Source: Geminocystis sp. M7585_C2015_104 | GTDB lineage: Bacteria > Cyanobacteriota > Cyanobacteriia > Cyanobacteriales > Cyanobacteriaceae | Assembly: GCA_015295805.1 (NCBI GenBank) | Contig: DVEF01000052.1 | Coordinates: 1-60,585, forward strand | Direction of reading: 5' to 3' | DNA: 60,585 nucleotides | Shown: positions 6,873 through 58,220 of the stretch, piece by piece | Layout: the number at the start of each line of letters is the position of its first letter | Numbering within the stretch: the first letter of the stretch is position 1 | Position numbers and translations under genes: made by a program | Notes under the pieces: generated by a model | What the model saw: the letters and a program-made list of their open reading frames with translations, nothing else | Told to the model about the DNA's origin: nothing | The model's database searches: none

Positions 6873-7628
6873 ATGTATGACAAGAATATTTTGATTATCG
6901 GAGCCAGTGGGGGCATTGGCTCGGGTTTTGTCTCCCAACTACTCCCTAGAGAGGATACTGGGCTGTTATTTGCCACCCATCGCTCCTTTTCTGTTACACC
7001 TTCCAATTTGTCCCAACTGTTGCAACAATTCCCGGAAAAGTTGAATCTGATACCGGTAGACGTCACCAGGGAAGAAGATATAAAAAACTCTGTAGCATTA
7101 ATAAAAACAAAAGTAGATAAACTTCACTTGGTAATAAACTGCGTGGGTATCCTCCATGAGGAAAAGCTGCAGCCGGAAAAAAGTCTAAAACATATCAACC
7201 CCCAAAACCTCATGCGCTATTTTGAGGTGAATACCATCCCTACTGTGTTGTGGGCAAAGCATCTACTCCCCCTGTTTAAACACCCCGAAAGAACCGTTTT
7301 TGCCGTCCTATCCGCCAAGGTGGGGAGTATTGAGGACAATAGGCTGGGGGGATGGTATGGCTATCGCGCCTCCAAGGCTGCCCTGAATATGCTGGTCAAA
7401 AATATTGCCATAGAATACAACCGAGTGACTCAAAACACCATCGTCGTCGCCCTCCACCCGGGCACCACTAATACCCGTCTATCTGCACCCTTTCAACACA
7501 GTGTGCCTCCGGAAAAACTGTTTTCCGTGGAATTGTGCACCAAACAACTACTGTCTGTCATCGAAAAACTCACCCCCTCCGCCAATGGTCACTTTCTAAG
7601 CTGGGATGGTAGTATTATCCCCTGGTGA
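6873..7628 (+). CDS. Short-chain dehydrogenase/reductase (C-factor-like)
   Basis: A 251-residue Rossmann-fold NAD(P)-dependent oxidoreductase. The cofactor motif is GASGGIG at residues 10-16, NCVGIL takes the place of the NNAG motif, and the catalytic pair is Tyr164-x3-Lys168 in YGYRASK. The dense Ser/Lys active site and overall pattern resemble the CsgA/C-factor-like SDRs, but the substrate is unknown. The start is only 4 bases after the hisD stop, so it is translated from the same message. Its stop abuts that of the malic enzyme gene on the other strand with no gap between them, leaving no room for an intergenic terminator. Confidence 0.88.
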   Translation: MYDKNILIIGASGGIGSGFVSQLLPREDTGLLFATHRSFSVTPSNLSQLLQQFPEKLNLIPVDVTREEDIKNSVALIKTKVDKLHLVINCVGILHEEKLQPEKSLKHINPQNLMRYFEVNTIPTVLWAKHLLPLFKHPERTVFAVLSAKVGSIEDNRLGGWYGYRASKAALNMLVKNIAIEYNRVTQNTIVVALHPGTTNTRLSAPFQHSVPPEKLFSVELCTKQLLSVIEKLTPSANGHFLSWDGSIIPW

Positions 7629-9026
7629 CTAGATTCTTGCCACCCCTGTCTCCCTTGCCGCTTGTTGCACGGCAGCCGCCACAGTGGGTACCACACGCGG
7701 GTCAAAAACAGAGGGGATAATATGTTCCTTGTCTAAAACACTGGGTGGCACAAGTCCAGCAATGGCCTTAGCCGCCTGCAAATACATGTCGGTGGTAAAG
7801 GCAATGGCACGACAATCCAATGCCCCTCTGAACACCCCCGGAAAAGCCAAGACGTTGTTAATCTGGTTAGGATAATCACTCCTGCCAGTAGCCACCACTG
7901 CCGCTATGTCTCGGATTAATTCCGGTTGAATCTCGGGGATGGGGTTGGCCATGGCAAACACTATTGGCTGCGCTGCCATGGTTTTAACCATCTCCGGGGT
8001 TAGAACCCCAGCAGTGCTAACACCAATGAATACATCTGCCCCTACCAAGGCGTCTGCTAGGGTGCCCTCCTGAGCCACGGCAAATAGGCGTTTTTCTTCA
8101 TTCAAATCTGGGCGCCCTTTGCTGACAATCCCTCTAGAATCACATAGGATAATATTCTCACAGTGAGCCTGTTGCAGGAGACGGGCAATGGCGATGCCAG
8201 CAGCACCAGCACCGTTGATTACCACCTTCACCTTCGTCATCTCTTTGTCTACCAGTTTAAGGGAATTAATCAATGCCGCCATGGTCACAATGGCAGTACC
8301 ATGTTGATCGTCGTGGAAGATGGGCACATCTAACTCCTCTTGCAGCTTTCTTTCAATCTCAAAACACTTCGGCGCGGCAATATCCTCCAAATTTACACCC
8401 CCAAAGGCAGGGATAATATTTTTCACCGTTCGGATAATCTCTTCCGCATCCTGGGTAGCAAGACATATGGGAAAAGCGTCAATATCCGCAAACTGTTTGA
8501 ACAACATGGCCTTGCCTTCCATTACTGGCAACGCCGCCTCTGGCCCTAAATTCCCCAGTCCTAATACCGCACTACCGTCAGTCACAATAGCAACACTATT
8601 ACCCTTGATGGTAAGGGAGAATACCTTTTCAGGAGCCTCCTCAATAGCCTTACAGATGCGTCCCACCCCTGGGGTATAAGCCATGGCCAAGTCGGCACTG
8701 GAGTTGATGGGGATGCGATTTTGAATATGAATTTTGCCCCCTCTATGAAGGTCAAAGGTGCGATCGCTTACATGCAAAACCTCTACATCCTTCAAGGCTT
8801 TAATGGCCCTAACGATCTGTTCGGCGTGTTCAGTACTAGAGGCGTCAATTTGTAACTCCCTTTTGACGGTTTTCAGGTTTCTCTCAATTAGGGATATTTG
8901 TCCTAAATTGCCCCCCGCCTCCGCTATTGCCTTGGTTACCTCCGCTAATGCCCCAGTGCGGTTTTTTAACTCCAAGCGAACTGTTAAACTAAAACTGGGA
9001 CTAGGACTTAGATTCCAATCAGTCAT
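7629..9026 (-). CDS. NAD(P)-dependent malic enzyme with N-terminal ACT domain
   Basis: This enzyme decarboxylates malate to pyruvate with reduction of NAD(P). It has 465 residues. An ACT regulatory domain occupies roughly residues 8-85 (SLTVRLELKNRTGALAEVTK), suggesting allosteric control by a small ligand, possibly an amino acid. The malic domain has MAYTPGVGRIC and FHDDQHGTAIVTMAAL (about 236-251), and the cofactor domain has INGAGAAGIAIARLL (about 268-284). This architecture is typical of cyanobacterial malic enzymes. The region upstream of its start is shared with the divergent cysH gene. The enzyme call is sure; cofactor preference cannot be read from the sequence. Confidence 0.95.
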   Translation of the reverse strand: MTDWNLSPSPSFSLTVRLELKNRTGALAEVTKAIAEAGGNLGQISLIERNLKTVKRELQIDASSTEHAEQIVRAIKALKDVEVLHVSDRTFDLHRGGKIHIQNRIPINSSADLAMAYTPGVGRICKAIEEAPEKVFSLTIKGNSVAIVTDGSAVLGLGNLGPEAALPVMEGKAMLFKQFADIDAFPICLATQDAEEIIRTVKNIIPAFGGVNLEDIAAPKCFEIERKLQEELDVPIFHDDQHGTAIVTMAALINSLKLVDKEMTKVKVVINGAGAAGIAIARLLQQAHCENIILCDSRGIVSKGRPDLNEEKRLFAVAQEGTLADALVGADVFIGVSTAGVLTPEMVKTMAAQPIVFAMANPIPEIQPELIRDIAAVVATGRSDYPNQINNVLAFPGVFRGALDCRAIAFTTDMYLQAAKAIAGLVPPSVLDKEHIIPSVFDPRVVPTVAAAVQQAARETGVARI

Positions 9027-45472: not shown

Positions 45473-46144
45473 ATGGATCTTGAAAAGATTGAATTACAAC
45501 TAAATTCTGAGGATATACAAGAGAGAATAAGGGCAGTGACGGCATTACAAAATTATACTCCAGAGGTAGCAGTGCCACTTTTGTTAAAGGCAAAGGAGGA
45601 TGAACAATTTTTGGTACGCTCGTTAGTAGCCATGGGATTAGGGAGACAAAAGACGGCAGAGTCTTTCGCTACCCTATTGGAAATGTTAAAATTCGACAGA
45701 GACACCAATGTAAGGGCAGAAGCCTCTAATTCCCTTTCCCTATTTGGGGAAGTATCAATACCCCACCTACAACAGGCTTTCCATCAGGATGACAGTTGGC
45801 TGGTGCGTCTGAGTATACTAGGGGCAATGATGGAATTAAACTGCCCTAATGAGTTGTTAGATGTATGTATTTGTGGGATACGAGGGGATGACTATACGGT
45901 AAAGGAGACATGTGTGAGTTGTCTAGGGGCATTAGCAGGGACGGAGAAGGAAGAGGAGGCACTACAACAATTACTGCAGCTAGTGGATGACGAGTCTTGG
46001 CGAATTCGTGCTAAAGTGGCTATCGCCCTCAGTAGATACAATAACCCCCGTGCCACTGAGGCTCTAAATAAATTAAAACAGGATTCAGATCATCGTGTGG
46101 TGGCGGCGGCGTTAGAAAAGGAATTTAAAATGGGGGATGGTTGA
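45473..46144 (+). CDS. HEAT-repeat protein
   Basis: 223 residues composed of about six HEAT/PBS-lyase-type helical repeats, for example DDSWLVRLSILGAMMEL, DDYTVKETCVSCLGAL and DDESWRIRAKVAIALSR. Such repeats bind proteins or, in phycobilin lyases, help attach bilins. It is distinct in length and sequence from cpeY and cpeZ at the other end of the window, so a lyase role is only one option. The ATG has a good GGAGGGGAT ribosome site. The TRAP permease gene begins 6 bases after the stop, so the two form an operon. Confidence 0.85.
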   Translation: MDLEKIELQLNSEDIQERIRAVTALQNYTPEVAVPLLLKAKEDEQFLVRSLVAMGLGRQKTAESFATLLEMLKFDRDTNVRAEASNSLSLFGEVSIPHLQQAFHQDDSWLVRLSILGAMMELNCPNELLDVCICGIRGDDYTVKETCVSCLGALAGTEKEEEALQQLLQLVDDESWRIRAKVAIALSRYNNPRATEALNKLKQDSDHRVVAAALEKEFKMGDG

Positions 46145-53880: not shown

Positions 53881-55629
53881 ATGACACAGGGGAGGGATGT
53901 CCAAGTTTATACCATAGCGCCAGAGACAAAAGTATTACGTTCGAGGACATGGGAACGATTAAAGTTTGAAGTAGAATATGGGTTGTGTAGGGGCACCACA
54001 GCCAATTCCTTCTTGTTGGAGGGGGATAAAATTGCCGTAATTGACCCGCCGGGAGAGTCATTCACGGAAATTTACATGTCAGCCTTGGCCGAGAGGATAG
54101 ACCTAGGTAGGATAGACTATCTTATTCTAGGACATGTCAACCCCAATAGGGCAGTCACCATAAACCGATTACTACAACAAGCGCCACAGATAACTATTAT
54201 CGTCTCTAACACAGGGGCAAAATCCCTACAAGAGATTTTTAACCACAGTTATCCGGACACTATTGCTAATAAGCCCTTGGACATAGTAGCAGTAAAGGGT
54301 GACTATAGTCTAGACCTAGGGAAGGGGCATCAGTTAGTACTCTTCCCCACCCCCAACCCCCGTTACCCCGACGAATTACTTACTTATGACAGCAAGACGC
54401 AAATCCTCTACACCGACAAATTATTCGGAGCACACGTTTGTGGTGAACAGGTGTTAGATGAAGGTTGGCAGATTTATCTAGAAGATAGACGTTATTATTT
54501 TGACTGTGTGATTGCTCCTTGTGCAACCCAAGTCAGTAAGGCACTGGAAAAAATTCAGAATTTCCCTGCCACCATCTACGCCCCAGCCCATGGTCCTCTG
54601 GTAAAATATGGTCTAAGGGAGTTAGTCCATTCATACAGGCAGTGGTTAGCCAAACAGCAGGGTCAGGAGTTAAATGTAGCCCTGATTTACGCCTCAGCCT
54701 ACGGTAATACGGCCCAGATAGCCTCTGCCATTGCCCGGGGAATAACCAAGGCGGGGGTAAGGGTTGAGTCTATCAATGCCGAGTATGCCAGTGATGAAGA
54801 GATTAAGACAGCCATAGCCCAATGTGATGGATTTATATTTGGCTCCCCCACCCTAGGTGGACATGCCCCCTCCCAAATCCAAAAGGCCCTGGGGATAGCC
54901 CTAACCACTGCCGAGGGAAATAAACTGGTGGGGGTGTTTGGCTCCTATGGTTGGAGTGGGGAGGCTATTGATTTGCTAGAATCGAAATTGAGGGATGGGG
55001 GTTATCGTTTCGGTTTTGAGACTATTCGGGTAAAATTTAAGCCCACAGAGGAAGTGTTAAAAACCTGTGAAGAGGCTGGCACTGACTTTGCCCAGGCTTT
55101 GAGAAAATACAAGAAATCCCTAAAGGCCAAGGACAAGGGCATAGAAGAAACCACCACCCCAAGGGCATCTCAAGCCCTGGGAAGGATTGTTGGCTCCCTT
55201 TGTATAGTCACCACCAAGAGGGGGGATTTGAAGGGGGCCATGGTAGCTTCCTGGGTTTCTCAGGCCAGTTTTAATCCTCCCGGCATAACCGTGGCAGTGG
55301 CCAAAGAGAGGGCCATTGAATCCCTCTTACCCATTGGGGCTCATTTTGTTTTAAATATACTACAAGAGGGGGAACATGCCGACCTGATGAAACACTTTTT
55401 AAAACCCTTCGCCCCCGGGGAAGATCGTTTTGTTGGCATAGACTGGGAGGAAGGTAGTAACGGTTGTCCCATCTTGAAGTCTGCCCTAGCCTATTTAGAA
55501 TGTGAGGTGAAGAATCGTCTAGAGTGTGGGGATCATTGGGTATTATATGCCCTTGCCCACAAAGGGAAAGTCCTGTCAGAATCCGGCATTACTGCCGTGC
55601 ATCACCGCAAATCCGGCGCCCACTACTAG
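53881..55629 (+). CDS. flv1: Flavodiiron protein Flv1 (class C)
   Basis: 582 residues in three modules: a beta-lactamase-like diiron domain (1 to about 260), a flavodoxin domain (about 265-410, with ALIYASAYGNTAQIASAI) and a flavin reductase-like domain (about 445-582, with RIVGSLCIVTTKRGD). Flv1 pairs with Flv3 to pass electrons from photosystem I to O2, protecting against fluctuating light. The metal-ligand motif is H85-V-N87-P-N89-R90, in place of H-x-E-x-D-H; such substitution is typical of Flv1 and Flv2, with Flv3/Flv4 keeping the canonical set. The N-terminus (RDVQVYTIAPETKVLRSRTW) fits Flv1 better than Flv2. flv3 is not nearby. Confidence 0.88.
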   Translation: MTQGRDVQVYTIAPETKVLRSRTWERLKFEVEYGLCRGTTANSFLLEGDKIAVIDPPGESFTEIYMSALAERIDLGRIDYLILGHVNPNRAVTINRLLQQAPQITIIVSNTGAKSLQEIFNHSYPDTIANKPLDIVAVKGDYSLDLGKGHQLVLFPTPNPRYPDELLTYDSKTQILYTDKLFGAHVCGEQVLDEGWQIYLEDRRYYFDCVIAPCATQVSKALEKIQNFPATIYAPAHGPLVKYGLRELVHSYRQWLAKQQGQELNVALIYASAYGNTAQIASAIARGITKAGVRVESINAEYASDEEIKTAIAQCDGFIFGSPTLGGHAPSQIQKALGIALTTAEGNKLVGVFGSYGWSGEAIDLLESKLRDGGYRFGFETIRVKFKPTEEVLKTCEEAGTDFAQALRKYKKSLKAKDKGIEETTTPRASQALGRIVGSLCIVTTKRGDLKGAMVASWVSQASFNPPGITVAVAKERAIESLLPIGAHFVLNILQEGEHADLMKHFLKPFAPGEDRFVGIDWEEGSNGCPILKSALAYLECEVKNRLECGDHWVLYALAHKGKVLSESGITAVHHRKSGAHY

Positions 55630-55712
55630 GGTGTGGGGGGTAGGGGATAGGGGGTCCCTAAGGGCTCCAACATTCCCTAGTCTCTAATCCCTATTCCCCA
55701 ATACCCTCACCC
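55629..55712. terminator. Bidirectional terminator-like inverted repeat between flv1 and the phycobilisome gene
   Basis: GGGTGTGGGGGGTAGGGG... at 55629-55652 pairs imperfectly (about five mismatches in 24) with ...CCCCAATACCCTCACCC at 55689-55712. It lies exactly between two converging genes and would end both transcripts, although it lacks a strong T run. Confidence 0.5.
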
Positions 55713-56282
55713 TGATTTAAACTGTTTTAGGCGTTCAATTAAATGGTCAAAATAGGGGGAAAGGAACGATTTTTGTTCCTCAGAAAAATAGTACAAACTA
55801 TAGGTTTTCACCTTCTCCAGTCCCAATACCATTGCCGGCAGGGGGACTTTTAATTCTTGATAAAGCAACTCCATATTTGCTAAACCAAAATCGCTGGTGA
55901 ATTGTTCAATTTTCCCCGCGATGGCGTAACTTATACAGCGGAGAAAATGCCAGAGGTCGCGCCAACAGGCTTCTGCCCTATTGGGGGGATAAAGTTCCCC
56001 ACCTGGGCCGGTAATTTCCGGAAAAGCTTTTAATACTTCCTTTCTGGCTCCCTCTACAATTTCCTGGGCCTTGTCTCGGATTGTTTTGCTATTTTCCAGA
56101 CTTTCCCTGAGAAAAGGCACCAGATTTGCTATTTCTTCCATATCAGAATCGCTGAGGTATTTCCCCTCATCGTCTGCTTCTTGGAATATACTAATCACCC
56201 TCTCCGGATAGATATTTTTCACAGTTTCCAAACTAAAAATTCTGGCTTTTGGTATTAGTTCTTTTGCTCTTTCTGTTAACAT
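55707..56282 (-). CDS. Orphan phycobilisome-domain (allophycocyanin-like) protein
   Basis: 191 residues with the phycobiliprotein globin fold pattern. PNRAEACWRDLWHFLRCISYA (residues about 100-120) matches the bilin-binding helix of phycobiliproteins: Cys106 is at the site that holds the bilin, with Arg108-Asp109 next to it. The C-terminal helices also follow the family. It is more divergent than ApcA/CpcA-type subunits and has a long N-terminal helical part. It is last in the cpeZ-cpeY direction, 18 bases after cpeY, so it may be a dedicated antenna subunit or assembly factor. I cannot name it further. Confidence 0.75.
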   Translation of the reverse strand: MLTERAKELIPKARIFSLETVKNIYPERVISIFQEADDEGKYLSDSDMEEIANLVPFLRESLENSKTIRDKAQEIVEGARKEVLKAFPEITGPGGELYPPNRAEACWRDLWHFLRCISYAIAGKIEQFTSDFGLANMELLYQELKVPLPAMVLGLEKVKTYSLYYFSEEQKSFLSPYFDHLIERLKQFKSG

Positions 56283-56300: not shown

Positions 56301-57581
56301 TTAAGATTTTTTCTGGAAAATGCTCTTAGCTTTTTCTCTAATTAAGAGGTCAGGGTCGTCACGAAATTGAGATATAGTCTCCCAGTCACCCAGCTGAGAA
56401 AGTGCTAACAAACAAGCGTATTTTAAATCGAAAATATCTGTGTGTATATTTTTTCTGAGTAAATGGAGGACATTATAGCCACCAAAATTGGCTAGGGCCA
56501 AGGCAGCAGCAGCACGGGATTTTTGAAATTGAGGGGCAGTGTTTTCCAAGGCTTCTACCAACAAGTCAAAAGCGGGTTGGTATTTAAGTCTCCCCCACAA
56601 TCTGATAACATGATAATGGGCTCCATAGTCGTTATGAGCCTCCCGTTGCCAAGTGTCCATTAGAATCTCCCCTAACCCCTGACGGTGGTATTGTTGGAGA
56701 GTCTTGACGGCAAGATAACAGCGGCCAAAGTCGGTGTGATACAATTCCTGGATGAGGAAATCGACACTAGGAGGGGCATCATATTCATGTACCAGTTCCA
56801 GGGTGTTGGGATCATCATAGATCACCTGATCTAAATAGGGCTCGACTTCTGAGAAGGATTTCACCCCTCCACGGATGGCATTTTCCCCAAGATGACGAAT
56901 ACCCCGCAACCGGAAGACAATGGAAACTGGACAAGAAGCAATGGCCGGTATGGCGGGATAATAATTTAAGTCCATCAAGTCCTGAATAACCCCCCGTCTG
57001 ACATTCACATTGGGAGACTGGAGAAAGTCCAACAGTCTGGAAACTTGACTATAATCCCCTTCTAGACGGGCAAGGGCACTAATGGCCGCACTTACCACAC
57101 AGTCGTCATTGTAGGCAAGAAAGGGACGAATAGAGTCGGCTGCTGGCTCATACTGCAAACGGGCTAGGGTTTGGATGATTACCCGATAATTTTGACCAGG
57201 TTTGGCCAAAAGGGCAGTAATTTCCTCCAACAAGGAGTCGTCGGTGGTCCCTATTTCCCCTATTGCCCATACGGCGTTTTCCACCGTGTAACAGTCATCG
57301 TCTGCCAGACACTTGCGAATGACGGGCAATGCCTCTTCCGCCTTAAACCTCCCCAGGGTTTCTATGGCCTTTCTCTTGGTAATCCTGTTGTACAATTGGT
57401 CATCACAATTTTCAATGGCCTCTATTAGCGCCCGGATAGTCCGAGGACTTTTGAAGTGTACTAGGTGACAGGCAGCAGCATACCTGGCACTGGGGTCATC
57501 TAATTTCTCCAGGGGGGTTTGTAAGAGGCGGAGGGCAGCTTCCTCAGTAATATTGAATAGTACGCTGAAACGCTTATCCAT
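56301..57581 (-). CDS. cpeY: Phycoerythrin bilin lyase CpeY
   Basis: A 426-residue HEAT-repeat lyase that, with CpeZ, attaches phycoerythrobilin to phycoerythrin alpha in known systems. The sequence begins MDKRFSVLFNITEEAALRLL and has VENAVWAIGEIGTTDDSLLE, CPVSIVFRLRGIRHLGENA and NDYGAHYHVIRLWGRL, all patterns I recall for CpeY. Its length matches CpeY (about 430), not CpcE (about 270). It follows cpeZ by 9 bases on the same strand. Its presence implies that this organism makes phycoerythrin or a related phycobiliprotein; the structural cpeBA genes are outside the window. Confidence 0.9.
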   Translation of the reverse strand: MDKRFSVLFNITEEAALRLLQTPLEKLDDPSARYAAACHLVHFKSPRTIRALIEAIENCDDQLYNRITKRKAIETLGRFKAEEALPVIRKCLADDDCYTVENAVWAIGEIGTTDDSLLEEITALLAKPGQNYRVIIQTLARLQYEPAADSIRPFLAYNDDCVVSAAISALARLEGDYSQVSRLLDFLQSPNVNVRRGVIQDLMDLNYYPAIPAIASCPVSIVFRLRGIRHLGENAIRGGVKSFSEVEPYLDQVIYDDPNTLELVHEYDAPPSVDFLIQELYHTDFGRCYLAVKTLQQYHRQGLGEILMDTWQREAHNDYGAHYHVIRLWGRLKYQPAFDLLVEALENTAPQFQKSRAAAALALANFGGYNVLHLLRKNIHTDIFDLKYACLLALSQLGDWETISQFRDDPDLLIREKAKSIFQKKS

Positions 57582-57590
57582 AATGCCACC

Positions 57591-58220
57591 CTAACGATTA
57601 AAACGAGCGTCGTTAACCTCCTTGAATTTGATAACCTGTTCTAAACGAGAGGTAGCACTCTTAGCAGCCTCCCTCAACATTTCATCCCTGGATTCGTCCT
57701 GGCAGACGGCGTTGAGGGCATCCATGGCCCTTGGATCGGGAATTGAGCCTAGGGCATTTATAACCGCCATGGCTACTGAGGGATTTTCTGTAGTTTGCAA
57801 GGATTCCGTCAATATCTCCAACCCCTGAGTGCCCATCTCCCCAAGTGCCATAATAGAAACTAAGTGTACCACGGGATTGGGGTCTTCAATACAGGCTTTC
57901 AAACCGGCTAAAGCCTCCTCGGGGAAGACGATGTCAGGATAGTTGACGGCTACCTGTGCCAAAGCTTTGCCACAACTGGCCCTAACTACGGGGTTATCAC
58001 TGGTAAGGAGAGTCTCCACTAGGGGGTTTACAGCAGGCAAGCCTATGGCACCAAGGGTTTTTACCGCCGCCCGTCGATATACCACATCCTCCTCCCCCAA
58101 TAAACTCATTAAGCGGGGAATAGTAGTCTCATCCCGGGATTCGGCAATTTGCCATATGGCCTCTTCTCGTAAATGGGGGTTAGGATGTCTTAACTGTTCA
58201 AATAGGGCATCCATACTCAT
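57591..58220 (-). CDS. cpeZ: Phycoerythrin bilin lyase subunit CpeZ
   Basis: 209 residues of HEAT repeats (ALFEQLRHPNPHLREEAIWQIAE, then DEDVVYRRAAVKTLGAIG-like and VVHLVSIMALGEMG). Size and pattern match CpeZ, which acts as chaperone-like partner of CpeY. CpcF is an alternative of similar length, but the pairing with a 426-residue CpeY favours CpeZ. It is the first gene of the cpeZ-cpeY-PBS unit, 164 bases from the divergent cysK. Confidence 0.88.
   Translation of the reverse strand: MSMDALFEQLRHPNPHLREEAIWQIAESRDETTIPRLMSLLGEEDVVYRRAAVKTLGAIGLPAVNPLVETLLTSDNPVVRASCGKALAQVAVNYPDIVFPEEALAGLKACIEDPNPVVHLVSIMALGEMGTQGLEILTESLQTTENPSVAMAVINALGSIPDPRAMDALNAVCQDESRDEMLREAAKSATSRLEQVIKFKEVNDARFNR

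Follow-up and report, generated by a model that had tools for sequence, protein, structure and literature searches.

What is a phycobilisome-domain protein doing at the end of a unit of bilin lyase genes? The window analysed here, 60,585 nt of contig DVEF01000052.1 of the cyanobacterium Geminocystis sp. M7585_C2015_104, raises this question through a gene behind cpeZ-cpeY, whose product a first-pass annotation had called an orphan and thought might be a minor subunit, a lyase substrate or a chaperone. The features concerned, with the gene already under the name argued for below, are:

55707..56282, minus strand: aplA, encoding a 191-aa allophycocyanin-like putative biliprotein (PF00502, AplA profile, tree and AlphaFold2 model)
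55965..55967, minus strand: codon of Cys106, the bilin attachment site predicted by homology (aligned to ApcA Cys81), followed by those of Trp107, Arg108 and Asp109
56208..56282, minus strand: N-terminal extension of AplA, residues 1–25, missing in canonical subunits (from alignment row lengths)
56301..57581, minus strand: cpeY, for a phycoerythrobilin lyase, directly upstream of aplA and in one unit with it (NF058505)
57591..58220, minus strand: cpeZ, the unit's first gene (HEAT repeats of the HEAT_2/HEAT_PBS type, size and place)

The aplA reading frame is intact, with 191 codons and an ATG start 18 nt downstream of the cpeY stop, and forms the third gene in the order cpeZ, cpeY, aplA. The call of CpeY is firm (632.7 bits to NF058505, cut-off 600); CpeZ reaches the cut-off of none of the NCBIfam models, so that only its place, its length and the HEAT repeats speak for the name. 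A cpeZ homologue adjoins cpeY in three of 21 named loci (L014–L016) and also on a Gloeothece plasmid treated below. Convergent with aplA, a gene on the plus strand (53881–55629) encodes a flavodiiron-type protein with ODP lactamase, flavodoxin and flavin reductase domains.

Residues 32–185 of the protein match PF00502 (158.7 bits, E 1.4e-46), and Cys106 is accompanied by Arg108-Asp109, as had been read from the sequence. Nevertheless, the protein stays under the cut-off of every NCBIfam subunit model, the best scores being 74 bits for ApcA (cut-off 270) and 73 bits for ApcB (cut-off 228). The genome holds 13 PF00502 matches, which include ApcA, ApcB, ApcD, ApcF, CpcA, CpcB, CpeA and CpeB together with an ApcE-type frame in two pieces and a pair of short, divergent globins. 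Of the eight canonical subunits thus labelled, seven exceed an NCBIfam cut-off; ApcD, which with 206 bits falls short of the 270 required for ApcA, was named from its solved relatives and its place in the tree. To seven of these eight single-domain subunits the window protein is 22–28% identical, and CpcA gave no match at the threshold used, bearing out the earlier remark that it is far from the standard subunits. The genome makes phycoerythrin, as judged from its CpeA (303 bits, cut-off 225) and full ordinary subunit set; its pebA and pebB lie on a contig other than that of aplA.

PMC2246261 describes AplA as an ApcA homologue, labels it a new photosensor class of unknown function, reports it as unlinked to the phycobilisome, and states that all PEII-containing Synechococcus have aplA, upstream of cpcGII. 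In PMC6363710, aplA is placed in pigment cluster type IIB, below cpcBA.

Matched against this published family description, the window gene is almost certainly aplA, because it agrees in its N-terminal extension, in a body like that of allophycocyanin, in its distribution and in its gene neighbours. ‘Orphan’ is thus a misnomer: the protein is an ordinary member of an already named family whose function is still to be found. With AplA of Fremyella diplosiphon and PEII-type marine Synechococcus it shares a PF00502 body nearest allophycocyanin alpha, a bilin-type Cys with Arg-Asp and a place in phycoerythrin gene clusters; its extension has 25 residues as against a reported 28. AplA of Fremyella reportedly has this 28-residue extension and a covalent chromophore and is absent from phycobilisomes; it was in this organism that the family received its name in 2004 (Montgomery et al., J Bacteriol 186:7420). 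The one difference, and not one in kind, is that the window copy sits directly behind cpeZ-cpeY. In marine Synechococcus aplA directly precedes a cpcG-type gene, and so it does in one locus of our own (L082; few loci were inspected), where aplA (7540–8184) is followed by a CpcG-like linker gene (8181–9014; 149 bits to NF058511, under the cut-off of 430). The AplA of L082, whose genome would be that of a picocyanobacterium, falls into the same clade as the window protein.

To delimit the family, we ran an AplA profile built from 15 relatives against a single genome set that covers 386 species of the phylum. It recovered 53 of the 386 genomes at 141–323 bits, with alignments beginning at profile positions 1–8 and hence including the extension; the window protein scored 309 bits in this whole-genome search. 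The next match, at 114 bits, starts at position 30, and from this score downward come ordinary subunits, with alignments that begin near that position. The 21 named loci had been found by a pattern search in which CWRDLWHF was one of six peptides, so that Cys conservation is partly built into them; the profile search is not bound to the motif in the same way, though the profile derives from pattern-found loci. Named loci and genomes overlap (G151 is L014, G336 is L021, and G143 carries the Rippkaea plasmid discussed below). Among 50,697 phage records the search for AplA returned no match.

Across 69 distinct AplA relatives, Cys106-Trp107-Arg108-Asp109 is invariant (69/69), as are Phe113, Arg115, Tyr119, the equivalent of Gly133, Tyr141, Val146 and Pro147, the only gaps being at positions beyond the ends of an 88-residue fragment. 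The putative bilin-binding residues Cys106, Arg108, Asp109, Tyr119 and Tyr141 are accordingly kept throughout the 69. Cys106 aligns to ApcA Cys81, which we take to be Cys84 in consensus numbering. Homologues lacking the cysteine, which would have spoken against the earlier proposal of bilin binding, did not turn up, and a covalent bilin at Cys106 is very likely as far as conservation can tell. The Trp that directly follows the bilin Cys sets the family apart: it is present in 69/69 AplA sequences versus 0/61 canonical rows with CxRD. A further trait is the N-terminal extension, which spans 18–34 residues (median about 26) in 38 AplA rows; of 23 other rows, 21 have 0–7 extra residues and two have 15.

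Phylogenetic trees were computed from 38 of the 69 AplA rows and 23 rows of canonical subunits, at most five of each, with fragments and over-long frames left out. A single branch separated AplA from all canonical subunits tested (support 92/93 with BBAG, a group of phycobiliprotein-like globins, as outgroup). Because BBAG meets the AplA branch in this first tree, raising a long-branch warning, we rebuilt it after removing BBAG and two long AplA rows, whereupon support rose to 100/100. A place inside a canonical subunit clade, which would have counted against the earlier proposal, was thus not found, and an identity as ApcA/B/D/F, CpcA/B or CpeA/B was rejected on both the model cut-offs and the separate branch.

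Could AplA nonetheless be a divergent ApcA or ApcD that has a minor structural part in the phycobilisome? Allophycocyanin alpha and ApcD are its closest relatives among solved structures and sequences (from the best 60 of 192 sequence matches), a position as sister of ApcA or of ApcD is not rejected by the AU test (p 0.11 and 0.215), and Asp37, Arg115 and Tyr119, three residues of the alpha–beta contact, are retained in the window protein, although substitutions at such positions are reported to be an AplA trait. However, identity to the antenna proteins is only 22–28%, and AplA differs from ApcA and ApcD in its extra N-terminal helix, its 18–34 additional N-terminal residues, the Trp after the Cys and the loss of positions that are constant in all 23 canonical rows: ApcA Gly111 is lost in 38/38 AplA rows and Glu114 in 30/38. 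Together with the published absence of a link to the phycobilisome (PMC2246261), these differences make the first-pass proposal of a minor subunit very improbable and a place outside the antenna likely.

BBAG, the cyanobacterial bilin biosynthesis-associated globins of the slr0149 type, resemble AplA in being phycobiliprotein-like yet outside the antenna, and some members carry CxRD (PMC10151467). They belong to a different lineage, whose genes cluster with those of V4R and Fe-S proteins, and the genome's own two BBAG candidates, set as outgroup, fall outside AplA plus antenna subunits; with BBAG-like rows across the branch from both (99/93), a BBAG identity for AplA was discarded. Among the neighbours listed, no V4R or Fe-S gene was seen beside aplA. 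Such a neighbourhood does occur elsewhere in the genome, where two divergent phycobilisome-domain globins, one with CKRD, accompany a 2Fe-2S-like protein and two V4R-like proteins, the latter named by eye (C101:23122–25255; L011, L013, L114). This cluster resembles the cyanobacterial BBAG clusters of PMC10151467.

An AlphaFold2 model of AplA (19 sequences; pLDDT 94.2, pTM 0.91) shows the phycobiliprotein globin preceded by an ordered N-terminal helix at residues 4–12 (pLDDT of the block 83–96). Its best solved relative by sequence is ApcD (E 1e-19, among the best 60 of 192 matches listed) and by structure ApcA (1all_A, Z 15.9, rmsd 3.5 over 142 residues). The part that starts at residue 57 superposes on smURFP with an rmsd of 1.9 over 131 residues. 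In Foldseek comparisons, the whole model deviates by 8.2–9.1 Å from solved subunits and by 1.9–2.1 Å from smURFP (without the N-terminal helical part). We had considered that displaced N-terminal helices block dimer formation and dropped this idea, as a control model of an ordinary CpeA shows the shift too, deviating by 5.5–5.7 Å from its own close crystal structures; this control is weak (five sequences, pLDDT 81.7, the other four of five models at 46–56).

We then asked with which pigment genes AplA travels. CpeA exceeds its cut-off in 48 of the 53 AplA genomes versus three of 27 AplA-negative genomes, the latter picked by hand to complete a set of 80 (Fisher 1.6e-12, which for related genomes is not a probability of independent events). 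CpeY exceeds its cut-off in 31 of the 386 genomes, 29 of them with AplA; the two exceptions, G300 and G091, also have CpeA without AplA, as does G274 with a CpeY homologue. In family f25, seemingly picocyanobacteria from the layout of the cluster, a CpeY homologue scoring under the cut-off (214–333 bits) occurs in 30 genomes, 19 with and 11 without AplA; 10 of these 11 gave no AplA-profile match at E 1e-20 and therefore lack an allophycocyanin-alpha-type protein as well. Conversely, five AplA genomes have neither CpeA nor CpeY at cut-off—four of genus g24 (G235, G237, G312 and G253; L101–L104) plus G036 (L081)—and their PebA searches returned only PcyA-level matches (57–72 bits), while CWRD is intact. 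Because of these five, phycoerythrobilin cannot be the sole ligand of AplA; if loaded, their AplA would bind another bilin, most simply phycocyanobilin. Instead of pigment genes, aplA at L101 has neighbours that encode an M50 peptidase and a PAP/fibrillin protein. The tie between AplA and phycoerythrin is thus strong, not absolute, and that to CpeY/CpeZ looser still.

This looseness bears on the view that AplA is dedicated to the CpeY/CpeZ lyase, as its substrate, its subunit or its chaperone, which is suggested by the shared transcription unit here, in G145 and in G151, and at L014–L016. In G145 (L105), which belongs to the window's own family, cpeB-cpeA-cpeZ-cpeY-aplA stand in a row on one strand. 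But cpeY lies within 1.1 kb of aplA in just three of 29 AplA genomes, all from that same family (f1), and a limit of 10.5 kb raises the number to 12; 11 of the 29 have the two on different contigs, where distance is undefined. Moreover, CpeY or a homologue (at least 214 bits) occurs without AplA in 13 genomes, and AplA without CpeY, CpeA or PebA in five. A dedicated role is therefore quite improbable, which weakens the first-pass notions of a chaperone or an obligate CpeYZ substrate; as a lyase substrate in the loose sense, without dedication to CpeYZ, AplA remains a likely candidate.

The earlier contrast between lyase unit and antenna genes applies to the window and breaks down in G145 and in phycoerythrin islands on plasmids. 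Relatives of the window protein at 50–56% identity are encoded on plasmids of Gloeothece citriformis PCC 7424 (pP742401), Rippkaea orientalis PCC 8801 (pP880102) and Pseudanabaena sp. PCC 7367 (pPSE7367.01); matches in three more plasmid records are at the level of ordinary subunits (25–29%). On the Gloeothece plasmid, about 14 kb hold a cpeB-cpeA-like pair, genes for CpeY (744 bits, cut-off 600) and a CpeZ-like protein, pebB, pebA, the HEAT-repeat gene HEAT-A, aplA, linkers and lyases, the cpeB-cpeA pair being called by size and order from genes annotated ‘bleomycin hydrolase’. It is this stretch that implies that AplA and its companions form a phycoerythrin island able to sit on plasmids. 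For the three aplA plasmids (L131, L130 and L132, respectively), PLSDB types one as mobilizable and one as conjugative. Their RefSeq labels for aplA read only ‘phycobilisome protein’ or ‘phycocyanin’, making the gene easy to overlook. Elsewhere, pebA-pebB-aplA are consecutive in two genomes (G143, on the Rippkaea plasmid, and G211), and L092 and L096 show cpcB-cpcA-aplA, the layout published for cluster type IIB.

The most frequent close neighbour of aplA among those examined is a gene that, in the window, lies at some distance:

45473..46144, plus strand: HEAT-A, encoding an NblB-like HEAT-repeat protein of 223 aa (HEAT_2), 9.6 kb from aplA

HEAT-A reaches the cut-off of no NCBIfam model (106 bits to the NblB model NF045915, cut-off 300). 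It forms its own group, with copies of at least 44% identity in 32 of the 80 genomes, followed by one borderline copy at 39% (G296) and then by NblB-like proteins near 30–34%. With G296 counted, 28 AplA genomes have HEAT-A, and in 19 of them no more than 1.1 kb separates it from aplA; over the same 28, the distance is at most 15 kb in 23, the contig is another one in four, and one copy is far away. The 19 close cases come from seven families and comprise convergent, divergent and same-strand layouts. Among the named loci, a set that overlaps with these genomes, 15 of 21 have HEAT-A within 0.5 kb of aplA, or 14 of the 17 with at least 1.2 kb on both sides. The best NblB-like match per genome (29–34%), by comparison, is in none of 30 cases found 15 kb or less from aplA; in 21 of the 30 it is on another contig. 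A published statement linking AplA to a HEAT or NblB protein was not found in our search, whose scope did not extend to the 2004 description and most subscription journals.

These positions prompt the reading that AplA and HEAT-A are a bilin-handling pair, in which AplA would carry phycoerythrobilin, buffer it or gauge its quality, and HEAT-A would load or strip it. Bilin lyases and NblB are among the HEAT-repeat proteins, and both G255 and the Gloeothece PCC 7424 plasmid have HEAT-A, pebA and pebB consecutively next to aplA, the plasmid's HEAT-A being 52% identical to that of the window. Yet HEAT-A, searched at 136 bits or more, was not found in 25 of the 53 AplA genomes (19 of f25, four of g24, G143 and G211) and is present in five of the 27 chosen AplA-negative ones, of which G300 and G091 have phycoerythrin and the other three do not. 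The association outside f25 has a Fisher value of 1.9e-4, again for related genomes and so not a probability of independent events. Both genes may merely share a phycoerythrin island: in G382, HEAT-A is 6 kb off, among linker and lyase genes. In addition, the G296 copy counted above is borderline, and in G024, G340 and the plasmid of Pseudanabaena PCC 7367, the gene that touches aplA encodes another NblB-like HEAT protein (in the last case 30% identical to the window's HEAT-A). We hold such a pair to be unlikely. A narrower version is somewhat less likely still, namely that the two are dedicated to each other within a mobile phycoerythrin island, HEAT-A loading or unloading phycoerythrobilin and loaded AplA reporting pigment supply or light colour. 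On this narrower version, phycoerythrin would be built only when phycoerythrobilin is at hand. An AplA-less genome, G099, carries pebA and pebB fragments beside an intact HEAT-A (C1:1934402–1936204; L125) and has no CpeA; these fragments are a relic of a lost phycoerythrin cluster.

The reading we favour, at a probability of roughly 60%, is that AplA is an independent covalent biliprotein, not part of the antenna, that probably reads the colour of light or the supply of bilin. Its globin body would take up one bilin, covalently at Cys106, in a pocket lined by Arg108, Asp109, Tyr119 and Tyr141, and the added N-terminal helix and the loss of antenna-constant residues would exclude AplA from the phycobilisome. 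As a free chromoprotein, it may then sense light colour or the supply of phycoerythrobilin in cells that make phycoerythrin. Attachment could be by CpeY/CpeZ where these are co-transcribed, by S-type lyases, by HEAT-A or unaided; neither CpeY nor HEAT-A is present in every AplA genome. That AplA is a sensor, as opposed to a carrier or store, falls a little short of an even bet: we found no output domain, conserved signalling partner or adjacent regulator, so that the term rests on the published label and on exclusion. Further observations run against the favoured reading, namely the five AplA genomes without CpeA, CpeY or PebA, the kept Asp37, Arg115 and Tyr119, and the phycoerythrin genomes without AplA (G300, G091 and G274).

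AplA has been a name without a function since 2004. Our analysis ties its gene to those for the synthesis (pebA, pebB) and attachment (cpeY, cpeZ) of phycoerythrobilin, gives its product an invariant pocket, and finds that it can persist without phycoerythrin. The recurrence of HEAT-A beside it is a new, testable lead that turns the function of AplA into a two-gene experiment.

Finally, an ApcD-like protein with a 15-residue N-terminal extension is encoded in two further genomes (G332, C11:13688–14158, L107; G177, C1:199117–199587, L108). In both, its gene lies 40–53 nt from, and convergent with, an NblB-like HEAT gene whose product is 30% identical to the window's HEAT-A, which adds a second pairing of a HEAT protein with a relative of the phycobiliproteins.
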